Shown one piece after another: positions 53,022 to 57,419 of a DNA stretch of 64,000 bases. The stretch spans positions 3,534,001 to 3,598,000 of the forward strand of contig NZ_CP040442.1 in the NCBI RefSeq assembly GCF_015191005.1. The letters run 5' to 3'. A program made the position numbers and the translations under genes. This DNA comes from Kaistella flava (ex Peng et al. 2021). GTDB taxonomy: Bacteria > Bacteroidota > Bacteroidia > Flavobacteriales > Weeksellaceae. The notes under the pieces were generated by a model. It did not search any database, had not been told where the DNA came from, and worked only from the letters and a program-made list of their open reading frames with translations. Positions within the stretch are counted from its first letter, which is position 1. The number at the start of each line of letters is the position of its first letter.

Positions 53022-53348
53022 CTACATTTTAATTGCCGCTTTCTGCGCAAATTCTTCCGCCATTTGTTCCAGCCAAAACGCAACATCTTCTTCGCCAGTC
53101 GCTCTTTCATAAGTATTACCCATTGAAAGTAAGATTTGGTGAATAAACATTTTCATTTGATCGACCGGCATGTCTTTCGTCCAAAGGTCAATTCTTAAGG
53201 CTTCCTTTTTTTTATCGTCCCATACAGAAATCATCGTGGCTTTAGTTTCCTCTTTTTCAACTCCGCCGTCTTCAGCATTCCAGGTCATTCTTTCAGGAAC
53301 GTGGTTTTCGTCTAATTCGATATCTATTGTGATTTGAGTCTTTTTCAT
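53022..53348 (-). CDS. gldC: Gliding motility protein GldC
   Basis: 108 residues, matching GldC: TQITIDIELDENHVPERMTWNAED, WDDKKKEALRIDLWTKDMPVDQMK and HQILLSMGNTYERATGEE are recognisable. GldC is a small cytosolic accessory protein of flavobacterial gliding, next to GldB in all known cases. Many Weeksellaceae keep gld genes without visible gliding. It is downstream of gldB with a 130-bp gap. Confidence 0.93.
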   Translation of the reverse strand: MKKTQITIDIELDENHVPERMTWNAEDGGVEKEETKATMISVWDDKKKEALRIDLWTKDMPVDQMKMFIHQILLSMGNTYERATGEEDVAFWLEQMAEEFAQKAAIKM

Positions 53349-53478
53349 ATATGATTTTTTAATTTTTAAAGGTAATATGTAATCGCTGATCTTAATTAGT
53401 GTTCGTTTCTAAAGGTCTTTAGTGGCGATTTCATCATTTTTAAAGATGATATTTTTTAAAGAAATGTTTTATTTAAAT

Positions 53479-54459
53479 TTAATTTTTGGGTTTATAATTA
53501 CTTTGATTAAAAATTTCCTGAGCGTTCATTTTTAGGAAATCTGTTAATTTAGTTTCTGGTTTTTCCTGATAGAATTTTCTACAAATCTGCCAACCGCTAA
53601 AAATTCCAATTTGCGGTGAAGATTCATTATCGATTTCGGTATAGAATTTAGAAAACGGCGCAGGATTGATGAATCGCTCTGCTAATCTTTGGTCATCGCT
53701 GAATACCAGATTGTTCTCTACGAAATAATTCCAAATATTTGCTTCATTTGCTTTCGCCCATTCATATTGTTCGGGCGTATAATTCATTTTTAAAGCATCT
53801 GGTTCATTTGGTAAAAAGGCATCTTGCAAAGTCATCAGTTTTCCATAATACACGATTTGGTCAATGAATTTTTGATGTTCGAAATTGCGCTCTACAAAAT
53901 GTTCGGCAAAGATTTCGGAAACTTTAGGAATGATGTTTTTAGGATTCATGCTTTTCTGAAAGTACTGTTCCAAACCTTTATAATTCGGATTGTTTTCACC
54001 CATAAATGCAGTGATATCTATAAACAGCATATCTTTTTGTGATTCATAGAAAATGGGTTCCATAATTCCTTGCAAAGCAGACGAATAAAGAAAAACTTGA
54101 GGTTCTTTAAAATCGGGGAAATAGTTTTTGATGTGCGAAAATAGATCGGCTAACTCTTTATTAAGTTTAGTGACATCGATTTTTGAAATTGCTTCTTTGT
54201 AGACTTTAATTTCCTCGGGATCTTTTCTTCTTTCGGCAAAATCTTCATTAGGAACCGTTCCCTGAAAGAAAGGATATTTCTGAGTGAAACTTTCCAGTGA
54301 AACATTTGGATCATATAACTCTTTAGAAATGTCAATCAATTGTACTTTTTCAACTGGACTTTTAACTTCCACTTTCCAAAGATTTTCGGAATCTTTTTTA
54401 CATGAATTCATTCCCGTTACTAATACGGCAGAAAATAAGAGATATCTAAAAAACTTCAT
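53479..54459 (-). CDS. gldB: Gliding motility lipoprotein GldB
   Basis: 326 residues with a lipoprotein signal (MKFFRYLLFSAVLVTGMNSC, Cys20). The mature part is helical with YKGLEQYFQKSMNPKNIIPKVSEIFAEHFVERNF typical of GldB. GldB is essential for gliding and for SprB-type protein export in Flavobacterium johnsoniae. The ATG at 54459 is used: the much longer frame upstream has no family match and crosses the divergent promoter. The gene is divergent from the acetyltransferase-nadE operon. Confidence 0.92.
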   Translation of the reverse strand: MKFFRYLLFSAVLVTGMNSCKKDSENLWKVEVKSPVEKVQLIDISKELYDPNVSLESFTQKYPFFQGTVPNEDFAERRKDPEEIKVYKEAISKIDVTKLNKELADLFSHIKNYFPDFKEPQVFLYSSALQGIMEPIFYESQKDMLFIDITAFMGENNPNYKGLEQYFQKSMNPKNIIPKVSEIFAEHFVERNFEHQKFIDQIVYYGKLMTLQDAFLPNEPDALKMNYTPEQYEWAKANEANIWNYFVENNLVFSDDQRLAERFINPAPFSKFYTEIDNESSPQIGIFSGWQICRKFYQEKPETKLTDFLKMNAQEIFNQSNYKPKN

Positions 54460-54470
54460 TATTTTTACAT

Positions 54471-54478
54471 CAAATTTA
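54471..54478 (-). promoter_or_regulatory. Promoter -7 box of gldB
   Basis: TAAATTTG on the minus strand, 11 bases before the ATG at 54459. A second match, TATTTTTG, lies at 54485-54492. Confidence 0.5.
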
Positions 54479-54502
54479 GAATTGCAAAAATAAGGAAAAT
54501 TA

Positions 54503-55051
54503 ATGGCAAAAATATTCATTGAAACACCAAGACTCATTTTAAGAGAAATTATTTCTGAAGATGTTGAAAGAGTATTTTTATTGGACAGCAATCCTGATGT
54601 CATGAAATATATTGGCGTTAAACCAGTGACAAAATTGGAGGAATCTGAAGAAACCATCAAGAAAATCAGAAAACAATATCAAGAAAACGGAATCGCAAGA
54701 TGGGCAGTTATTGAAAAAGAATCAAACCTCTTAATCGGTTGGAGCGGTTTGAAATTATTAACTGAATCTCTCAATGGTTTCCAAAATGTGTACGAATTAG
54801 GTTATCGCTTTTTACCGGAATATTGGGGAAAAGGATATGCAACAGAATCAGGAAAGGCAGTTTTAGATTATGGTTTTAATAAAATGAATTTAGGTGGAAT
54901 TTACGCTTGCGTCGATATTCAAAATGTAGATTCAAATAAAATTCTAAAAGATAAATTAGGTTTCAAAGAACAAGGAACTTTTATTGATGATTTAGATAAT
55001 GCAACGTGTTATTGGTACGAATTAGAAAAAGTGAAATTTAATAAAGATTAA
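54503..55051 (+). CDS. GNAT family N-acetyltransferase
   Basis: 182 residues, RimJ/RimL type: ETPRLILREIISEDVERVFLLDSNPDVMKYIG at the N-terminus, GWSGLKLL, YELGYRFLPEYWGKGYATESGKAVLDYGF (acetyl-CoA loop W-G-K-G-Y-A) and NVDSNKILKDKLGFKE. Its stop is directly followed by the nadE ATG without a spacer, so it heads an operon of four genes. Substrate unknown. Confidence 0.9.
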   Translation: MAKIFIETPRLILREIISEDVERVFLLDSNPDVMKYIGVKPVTKLEESEETIKKIRKQYQENGIARWAVIEKESNLLIGWSGLKLLTESLNGFQNVYELGYRFLPEYWGKGYATESGKAVLDYGFNKMNLGGIYACVDIQNVDSNKILKDKLGFKEQGTFIDDLDNATCYWYELEKVKFNKD

Positions 55052-55843
55052 ATGCAAACAGATAAAATAACAGATAAAATAGTTTCCTGGCTGAAAGATT
55101 ACGCTGCAAAAGCAAATGTAAAAGGTTACGTTATCGGAGTTTCCGGCGGAATTGATTCTGCGGTCGTTTCTACACTTTGTGCCATGACAGGATTAAAAAC
55201 TTTGTTAATAGAAATGCCGATTCGTCAAAATTCTGCTGAAGTAGATCGCGCCTGGGAACACATGGAAGATTTAAAAAAACGATTCTCAAATGTTGAAGCG
55301 ATTTCGGTGAATTTGACTCCCGCTTTCGAAGAGTTATATAAAACCTTCGATGTTAATGATGAAGAATTTCCTGCAGAGAAACTGGCTTTTGCCAATACAA
55401 GAAGTCGTTTAAGAATGCTTACTTTATATTATTACGGACAAATCAATAGTATTCTTGTTTGCGGAACCGGAAATAAAGTGGAAGATTTCGGTGTTGGATT
55501 TTTCACCAAATATGGCGACGGTGGAGTAGATGTTTCGCCGATTGCAGATTTGTATAAAACTGAAGTTTATGCTTTGGCAAAATCTTTAGATCTTGTGGAA
55601 TCCATTCAAATTGCAATTCCGGCAGATGGATTGTGGGATGAATCAAGAACTGATGAACAGCAAATTGGTGCCACTTATCCGGAATTAGAAAAGATTCAGA
55701 AAGATTGGGGAACAAAAACAGAAGCGGATTATTCAGGAAGAGATTTAGAAGTTTTCAAAATTTTCCAGAGAATGAATCGTGCTGCTCAACATAAAATTCA
55801 ACCAATTCCGGTTTGTAATATTCCAGAAGAGTGGCGAAATTAA
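55052..55843 (+). CDS. nadE: NAD+ synthase
   Basis: 263 residues. Converts nicotinate adenine dinucleotide to NAD with ATP and ammonia. The P-loop-like SGGIDSAVVSTLCAMTG, VCGTGNKVEDFGVGFFTKYGDGGVD and IPADGLWDESRTDEQQIGATYPELE are the NadE signatures; there is no glutaminase domain, so it uses ammonia. Located between the acetyltransferase and a membrane protein-barnase pair; gldB-nadE neighbourhood is common in flavobacteria. Confidence 0.95.
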   Translation: MQTDKITDKIVSWLKDYAAKANVKGYVIGVSGGIDSAVVSTLCAMTGLKTLLIEMPIRQNSAEVDRAWEHMEDLKKRFSNVEAISVNLTPAFEELYKTFDVNDEEFPAEKLAFANTRSRLRMLTLYYYGQINSILVCGTGNKVEDFGVGFFTKYGDGGVDVSPIADLYKTEVYALAKSLDLVESIQIAIPADGLWDESRTDEQQIGATYPELEKIQKDWGTKTEADYSGRDLEVFKIFQRMNRAAQHKIQPIPVCNIPEEWRN

Positions 55844-55854
55844 AAAAAAAGAAA

Positions 55855-56388
55855 ATGAAATCATTAAAATTAAAATATCTTACTCCAATTTGTTTTCTCA
55901 TTTTCTTCATGCCTTTTTTACGAATGTGCGATGGGAAAGTAGAAACCATTGAAACAAATACGGAAGATGTTAGTCAAGTAATTTCATTGCCAGCGGAAGA
56001 AGTTAACCATGTAAATACTGTTGCAACAGAAGATGTGAATCTGAATACTTATCAATTAGGTGGAGTTTTTTTTAAATTACTTCTTGAAGGAGAACTTGAC
56101 GCGAAAATTTTTGCGGAAATAGATTTTTGGGAATCATTGTGTTATTCACTTATTCTTCTGAATTCAATTTTAATGGTTATTTTATCATTTTTGAGTAAAT
56201 TTCATTTGGTTAAAAATTTAGCGATTGTGAATGTTATTTTATTAATTATTTCGACCATTTTATTTATTAAGTCTGGATTTATAGAAAACTTTTCGGATGT
56301 GAAATATGGTTTTTACGTATTTTTAATATATTCATTCCTCATAATATACTTTGCCAAAAAAGAATTTTTAGAATTAAAAACATTATGA
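55855..56388 (+). CDS. Four-helix membrane protein preceding the barnase homologue
   Basis: 177 residues: an N-terminal hydrophobic segment (about 7-24, with a Cys in LRMCDGK), a Glu/Asn/Val-rich exposed loop (about 25-75), then three further membrane helices in the C-terminal half (about 90-112, 118-140, 150-170). I do not recognise a family. The stop overlaps the barnase ATG by four bases (ATGA), so the two are translationally coupled; it starts 11 bases after nadE. A role in localisation, export or self-protection of the ribonuclease is possible but unsupported. Confidence 0.75.
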   Translation: MKSLKLKYLTPICFLIFFMPFLRMCDGKVETIETNTEDVSQVISLPAEEVNHVNTVATEDVNLNTYQLGGVFFKLLLEGELDAKIFAEIDFWESLCYSLILLNSILMVILSFLSKFHLVKNLAIVNVILLIISTILFIKSGFIENFSDVKYGFYVFLIYSFLIIYFAKKEFLELKTL

Positions 56389-56909
56389 ACAAAGACAAAA
56401 TAAAACTCGTCCTCTTCTTTATCATCGGATTACTGACCGCATTTCTGGCGATGCATTTTTTCAACACTTATAAAAATGAAAAGAAGAATGAAGAGGTCAA
56501 TCAATCAGAAGTTTCCATTAAAGAAAATAATAATGAAAACTTTAGCGAAAATAAAAATTCAGAATCCGCAAATTTCTCTGGAAACATCAATGATTTAACA
56601 GAAGAAAATACGGTTATTAATTATGTGAAAACCAATCACGAACTTCCAGATTATTATTTGACAAAAAGTGAAGCGCGTAAACAAGGTTGGATTGCCTCAA
56701 AAGGAAACCTTTGCGATGTTCTTCCCGGAAAAGCAATTGGCGGAGATCACTTTAGCAACAGAGAAAAAACACTTCCAGCTGGAAATAAATATTTCGAAGC
56801 CGACGTGAATTACAATTGTTCAAACCGAAATGCTGACCGAATTATCTTCACCAAAAACGGCGACGTTTGGCTGACGAAGAATCATTATAAAACATTTGAC
56901 AAAAAATAA
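56385..56909 (+). CDS. Membrane-anchored barnase-family ribonuclease
   Basis: 174 residues: a membrane anchor (about 7-26), a Lys/Asn/Glu-rich linker (27-75) and a barnase domain (about 78-174). The match to Bacillus barnase is strong: ELPDYYLTKSEARKQGW, ASKGNL and GKAIGGDHFSNREKTLP. Catalytic residues are conserved as E138 (barnase E73), R152 (R87), H167 (H102) and K94 (K27). Two Cys (C110, C145), absent from barnase at these sites, could form a disulfide if the domain is outside the cytosol. The substrate is RNA. Barstar follows 181 bases downstream. Confidence 0.9.
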   Translation: MNKDKIKLVLFFIIGLLTAFLAMHFFNTYKNEKKNEEVNQSEVSIKENNNENFSENKNSESANFSGNINDLTEENTVINYVKTNHELPDYYLTKSEARKQGWIASKGNLCDVLPGKAIGGDHFSNREKTLPAGNKYFEADVNYNCSNRNADRIIFTKNGDVWLTKNHYKTFDKK

Positions 56910-57008
56910 TAAGAGCAAAAAAGATTAAGAACAAAAAATCAACTCAAAGCCATTGCTAAGCGAAGCGCCTTTGCGACCGTAATTAATTAGAAAGAATATA
57001 AAAAAAAC

Positions 57009-57038
57009 TTTGCGCCTTTGCGTTTAAAAGTATTTTTG
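57009..57038 (+). promoter_or_regulatory. Promoter of the barstar gene
   Basis: TTTG at 57009-57012 and TATTTTTG at 57031-57038 with 18 bases between fit the -33/-7 consensus. Transcription should start near 57043, about 48 bases before the ATG, so barstar can be made independently of the nadE-barnase operon. The leader contains two CCACAACCTAAA words. Confidence 0.6.
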
Positions 57039-57090
57039 AATTTTGAAGAATAGACTTTAAAACCACAACCTAAACCCACAACCTAAAAAT

Positions 57091-57384
57091 ATGAATACTG
57101 TATATATTGACTTTATAGAAATCGGAGATATGGAAGATTTCTTCGAGCAATTAAAAGAAAAACTAAAACTGCCTGAAACTTTCGGCGATAATCTCGATGC
57201 ACTTTACGATTCGATTACCGGATTTGTAGAACTTCCATTGCATCTTGAATTCGTGAATATGAGTGTTGAGCAATTGGATGATTTCGAAGATTTACTCACA
57301 ACTTTAGAGGAAGCAGATGAAGAAGTAGAAGACTTTTCATTTTCCTATTACCTCGAACAATACGAAGACGAGGACGAAGAATAA
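57091..57384 (+). CDS. Barstar family protein (barnase inhibitor)
   Basis: 97 residues. The barstar core LPETFGDNLDALYDSITGFVELPLHLEF aligns directly with Bacillus barstar; D36 and D40 correspond to barstar D35 and D39, which plug the barnase active site, and F31/Y39 replace Tyr29/Trp38. The C-terminus (about 72-97) is very acidic (EEADEEVEDFS, YEDEDEE). It is presumably the cytosolic inhibitor of the ribonuclease encoded just upstream. It has its own promoter box and terminator. Confidence 0.93.
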   Translation: MNTVYIDFIEIGDMEDFFEQLKEKLKLPETFGDNLDALYDSITGFVELPLHLEFVNMSVEQLDDFEDLLTTLEEADEEVEDFSFSYYLEQYEDEDEE

Positions 57385-57419
57385 AAAAAGAAACCATCTG
57401 TGAAGATGGTTTCTTTTTA
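57384..57419 (+). terminator. Terminator after barstar
   Basis: GAAACCATC and GATGGTTTC form a nine-base stem with A-run before and TTTTT after; it can also end the minus-strand lipoprotein transcript. Confidence 0.88.

Follow-up and report, generated by a model that had tools for sequence, protein, structure and literature searches.

An apparently membrane-anchored barnase and its barstar form a mostly inherited gene block behind nadE in Kaistella and its family

Behind the NAD synthetase gene nadE, Kaistella flava encodes a barnase-family ribonuclease with a predicted N-terminal membrane anchor and, downstream of it, a barstar inhibitor; the order nadE-barnase-barstar recurred in all 80 loci fetched for comparison and is, judged from the sequences compared, an old and mostly inherited block, with a barnase tree that largely follows genus. 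We consider it probable that the pair represents a resident, mainly vertically inherited, membrane-tethered envelope RNase with a cytosolic safety inhibitor. A tethered, exported RNase held in check by a cytosolic inhibitor would account for the anchor, for a conserved pair of cysteines, for inhibitor contacts that do not vary and for the mode of inheritance. The 80 nadE loci comprised those of all 35 other Kaistella genomes and 45 from the family's other genera, the latter hand-picked, and thus non-random, from a pool of 243 other genomes with nadE; they include every genome with a close relative of the membrane protein described below and no Epilithonimonas. Database records list some Kaistella members under Chryseobacterium.

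In the window (the whole stretch of 64,000 nucleotides analysed), a gene for a GNAT acetyltransferase (54503..55051, plus strand; PF13302, E 1.3e-30) ends directly before nadE (55052..55843, plus strand; PF02540, E 3.7e-46; TIGR00552, E 2.5e-50, over its cut-off). After a gap of 11 bases follows the gene for a four-helix membrane protein of 177 aa, hereafter MP (55855..56388, plus strand), whose stop overlaps by 4 bases the ATG of the 174-aa barnase (56385..56909, plus strand). Another 181 bases separate the barnase stop from the start of the 97-aa barstar (57091..57384, plus strand), which carries no export signal and is followed by an inverted repeat and a T run, terminator-like as read from the sequence and unscored (57390..57418, plus strand). 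The coordinates and frames that a sequence-only reading of this DNA had assigned to nadE, MP, barnase and barstar were confirmed, as was its description of MP and barnase lying behind nadE with overlapping reading frames. All matches of the window to RNA families stayed below their gathering scores. Divergent from the GNAT-nadE-barnase run, the minus-strand region 53022-54660 contains gldC (TIGR03515, over cut-off) and, by position alone, a candidate gldB.

The ribonuclease scored 54.6 bits against PF00545 (curated cut-off 24; E 1.7e-14) and matched PDB barnases at E ~1e-33, the match to 1bne spanning residues 76-173. K94, E138, R152 and H167 aligned with barnase positions 27, 73, 87 and 102, which we take to be the catalytic or otherwise functional residues K27, E73, R87 and H102, so that the earlier claim of four retained functional residues is borne out. 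Together with R126 and R148, these residues, to which we ascribe catalytic and barstar-contact roles, were invariant in 81/81 barnases (the window plus the 80 fetched loci).

Hydropathy places an N-terminal membrane anchor at about residues 8-26 (56406..56462, plus strand). A helix-like hydrophobic segment, followed by a variable polar linker, was present at the N terminus of 81/81 barnases, supporting the anchor and long polar linker proposed from the letters alone. The net charge was higher on the N-terminal than on the C-terminal side of the anchor in 68 of the 81 proteins, equal in 10 and reversed in 3. None of the 81 matched a simple lipobox pattern; by a crude rule, 15 possessed an AXA-like site near the end of the helix, given which the enzyme may be cleaved and released in some relatives. 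With a mean identity of 0.31 vs. 0.71 for the domain, the N-terminal part evolves fast.

Two cysteines, Cys110 (codon at 56712..56714, plus strand) and Cys145 (56817..56819, plus strand), correspond to barnase positions 43 and 80 and align with cysteines of 1bne. Both were invariant in the 81 loci and in all of the 80 named loci (the best 80 of 292, overlapping with the genomes of the 80 nadE loci), and 117 of 120 listed sequences out of 1584 database homologues fit a rough motif for the pair. The top three PDB chains, 7mrx, 6pqk and 1bne, have Cys at both positions; the next two shown, 1b21 and 1b2z, have Cys at neither. We take 1bne, and likewise 6pqk and 7mrx, to be barnase with an engineered A43C/S80C disulfide, in which case cysteines introduced there by design are invariant here in nature. 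These observations support the view, already voiced for this DNA, that the two cysteines suit a disulfide, and Cys110-Cys145 would then be a natural one: nature's version of a protein-engineering result. If taken as a disulfide, the pair would point to an oxidising compartment beyond the cytosol, and anchor and cysteines together suggest an RNase that faces the envelope and is stabilised by a disulfide, with barstar in the cytosol as its safety catch. Action outside the cytosol, as anticipated by the sequence-only reading, thus appears probable, with a topology predicted from hydropathy and charge. Our literature search found nothing on a barnase 43-80 disulfide; a passage on A43C, in an excerpt from the disulfide-engineering literature, concerned flavodoxin.

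The inhibitor reached 67.7 bits against PF01337 (cut-off 23.4; E 8.9e-19) and matched PDB barstar at 8.5e-11. Its D36 and D40 aligned with positions 36 and 40 of the PDB chain, presumably D35 and D39, the aspartates that plug the active site, and the window protein indeed keeps both; D40 was kept in 81/81 barstars and D36 in 77/81. The barstar gene lay downstream of the barnase gene in 81/81 loci, and in 78/80 named loci within the stretch fetched, confirming that the pair is complete. The barstars are unusually acidic, with a net charge of -29 in the window and a mean of -26 over the 81, and the window barstar matched one phrog of unknown function. An archaemetzincin-like gene lies between barnase and barstar in 17/81 loci and 33/80 named loci, the window being among those without it; one example (L157:2319-2924) matched the Pfam M54 family at 8.6e-8 and, by eye, contains an HExxHxxGxxH motif. 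By eye, a few Chryseobacterium carry a small GIY-YIG-like ORF in the gap instead.

That barstar, starting 181 bases downstream, has a promoter of its own had also been proposed; the spacing is as described, and an independent promoter is plausible from motif enrichment. A pattern match identified a candidate, TTTG-N18-TATTTTTG (57009..57038, plus strand), of the Bacteroidetes -33/-7 type, for which PMC6847099 gives the consensus TTTG/TAnnTTTG. Matches to this consensus in the window were at chance level (6 seen vs. 5.33 expected), and the candidate lies partly inside an interspersed repeat of about 80 bp (56950..57036, plus strand) that recurs in similar form at no fewer than 15 further places in the chromosome (16 listed matches, from scoring 40 of 122 candidates). 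Three close relatives (L091-L093) also have repeat-like sequence before barstar, as seen by eye, and had no promoter match there. Across 56 loci, the full motif occurred upstream of barstar in 5 (0.17 expected from dinucleotide shuffles; reverse strand 0) and the -7 box in 19 (4.3 expected; reverse strand 3); upstream of barnase, the full motif was found in 0/39 loci (reverse strand 1/39). As the loci are related, this enrichment is support rather than proof, and in loci with the archaemetzincin-like metalloprotease gene, the stretch searched before barstar extends into it.

All 36 Kaistella genomes contained the nadE-barnase-barstar block, each with one barnase copy. Searching with a profile made from barnases of this family gave a match in 209 of the 246 family genomes, including 12 Kaistella missed by Pfam, whose tally of 125/246 is an undercount. 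In an order-level draw of 246 genomes, all 37 barnase matches belonged to this family; a class-level Pfam search returned 1/247, overlooked at least one genome (G020) picked up by the profile, and is not taken here as evidence of absence. Barstar matches were present in 214/246 family genomes, and 18 of 20 listed barnase-negative genomes (a further 17 are unlisted) had no barstar match either. One genome (G097) had barnase and no barstar match, and at least six (G002, G055, G087, G106, G125 and G128) had a barstar and no barnase match. Five genomes gave two barnase matches each (G046, G062, G074, G084 and G188), and one from the Epilithonimonas group gave a match with one in-frame stop (G115:C5:31775-32281).

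nadE preceded barnase in 67 of the 80 named loci. Among the 13 without it, two of which also showed no barstar in the stretch fetched, one lay at a contig end and 12 had barnase divergent from another gene, which by eye resembles that of an acyl-CoA dehydrogenase; 8 of the 13 were named Epilithonimonas. nadE is therefore not required. In three genomes of the Epilithonimonas group (G068, G101 and G138), barstar lay 5-7 kb from barnase. The barnase tree needed 16 genus-label changes for 15 groups, close to the minimum of 14 and far from the shuffled mean of 40.8; Kaistella was not one clade (5 changes, weak branches), and 34/78 inner branches had support under 80. Barnase and nadE distances were modestly correlated (rho 0.39; 0/200 permutations as high). 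Family-wide presence and a largely genus-following tree argue against both a patchy toxin-antitoxin system and a polymorphic toxin. Literature linking barnase with nadE was not apparent among the papers listed, judged from titles and abstract starts, and a search for barnase and barstar in Flavobacter found none.

The sequence-only reading had singled out MP as the new part of the system. Its description as an unrecognised four-helix protein stands: neither Pfam nor NCBIfam gave a match to MP up to E 1, PHROGs and PADLOC gave none, and hydrophobic segments cover residues 4-22 (borderline, 1.61), 95-113, 122-140 and 149-167. Its AlphaFold model is weak (mean pLDDT 64) and had no PDB match at E<=0.001. 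MP occupied the slot between nadE and barnase in 5/81 loci, namely in 1/36 Kaistella, 3/7 genomes of one other genus and 1/2 Halpernia, and is thus an occasional neighbour; with this distribution, MP was rejected as a core of the system. Nor does it always accompany barnase: MP or its kin were found in 20/246 family genomes, 15 of which hold distant relatives (29-38% identity) away from barnase, and no known role emerged for them. Neighbours at the five of these 15 loci that were scanned included genes for an S51 peptidase, an asparaginase, a Nudix protein, an epimerase, a DUF protein and an adenylosuccinate-lyase-type enzyme. At L171:5089-7412, for instance, a distant relative sits between Peptidase_S51 and Asparaginase_2 genes, the former presumably cyanophycinase-like.

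MP might nonetheless be a working partner of barnase in insertion, retention or control, gained once in an ancestor and often lost since. The close MPs (the window protein plus four that are 47-52% identical to it) occupy the slot in 5/5 genomes from three genera, form one clade (95 SH-aLRT) in a tree that also included 13 of the 15 distant MPs (all except the split L179 and the truncated L185) along with 5 of 22 database relatives, and adjoin barnase through the 4-base overlap or gaps of 3-22 bases. Against such a partnership, 76/81 loci lack MP without any remnant in the nadE-barnase gap, the wider family adjoins other genes, and the GC content of MP is 0.27 vs. 0.35 for the window, although this low value may merely reflect membrane codons. 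On balance, we regard a working partnership as unlikely. MP may have entered once and then been lost many times, or it may have moved between genera.

The same sequence-only reading had raised a contact-dependent or released toxin with immunity, or a self-targeting RNase. An interbacterial toxin, with a tethered or shed RNase entering neighbouring cells and barstar protecting kin, would fit the invariable position of barstar downstream of barnase, the AXA-like sites that would permit release in some relatives, and the known use of barnase-like domains with barstar immunity as a toxin cassette (PMC3482391). In Pfam, however, only PF00545 exceeded its cut-off on the ribonuclease, with no delivery, adhesion, trafficking or repeat domain and a single helix as anchor, and no padloc or phrogs model matched it. 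The catalytic and contact residues do not vary, the gene is present throughout the genus in single copy on a largely genus-following tree, and barstar would also be present in most neighbouring cells from this family, leaving an interbacterial toxin with little likelihood. Equally improbable is a self-targeting, toxin-antitoxin or abortive system, in which barnase would face the cytosol and loss of barstar cause arrest: most barnase carriers do hold a barstar match, and a possible independent barstar promoter would allow unequal control, but the invariant cysteines and positive N terminus favour export, defence and phage models (padloc, phrogs) do not match the RNase, phage records contained no barnase match and the plasmid set only four matching records, all of 0.6-4.1 Mb, and inheritance replaces the patchy, mobile distribution typical of such systems. 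A toxin directed at rivals or at self accounts for the pair but leaves unexplained why it is steadily present across the family and why its key residues do not vary.

For the envelope RNase that we favour, the N-terminal helix would insert barnase with the N terminus inside and the C terminus outside, so that a flexible linker suspends the catalytic domain in the periplasm, where a Cys110-Cys145 disulfide would stabilise it. Barstar would stay in the cytosol and, by analogy with Bacillus, inhibit barnase that fails to be exported. The likely job, a guess likewise guided by Bacillus, might be to cut RNA that reaches the envelope, for scavenging or as a barrier. nadE would serve chiefly as a conserved neighbour on the chromosome that leads transcription into the pair, and MP would be a passenger that arrived late or has often been lost. 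We hold only tentatively a more specific version, in which a near-core, periplasmic, tethered barnase with a natural 43-80 disulfide and a hyper-acidic cytosolic barstar serves housekeeping RNA turnover or acts as an RNA barrier in the envelope, with MP joining as an optional membrane partner in a small number of lineages. What barnase-type RNases do in nature is poorly understood, for all that barnase is a textbook protein; an inherited pair outside Bacillus that occurs across a family, usually in single copy, would make their role testable.

Among known systems, the polymorphic Tox-Barnase/Imm-Barstar cassettes combine the same domain pair in the same toxin-then-immunity order, and widely distributed simple pairs have been considered a possible incipient form (Zhang et al. 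2012, PMC3482391). Unlike these toxins, the Kaistella barnase shows only PF00545 and a helix, with no trafficking or repeat domains and no secretion marker found, invariant key residues and one usual locus. The barnase-barstar pair of Bacillus amyloliquefaciens, binase and balifase (PF00545, N1/T1) share with it the catalytic and contact residues, the profile family and an inhibitor without export signal. As described in PMC5021464, the Bacillus barnase relatives are extracellular and their inhibitor intracellular, balifase shares an operon with its inhibitor, and binase and balifase are induced by phosphate starvation. While the Bacillus RNases have a signal peptide and a propeptide, that of Kaistella has a membrane anchor and a linker, and its pair further differs in the natural cysteines, the usual place behind nadE and the very acidic inhibitor (net -29).
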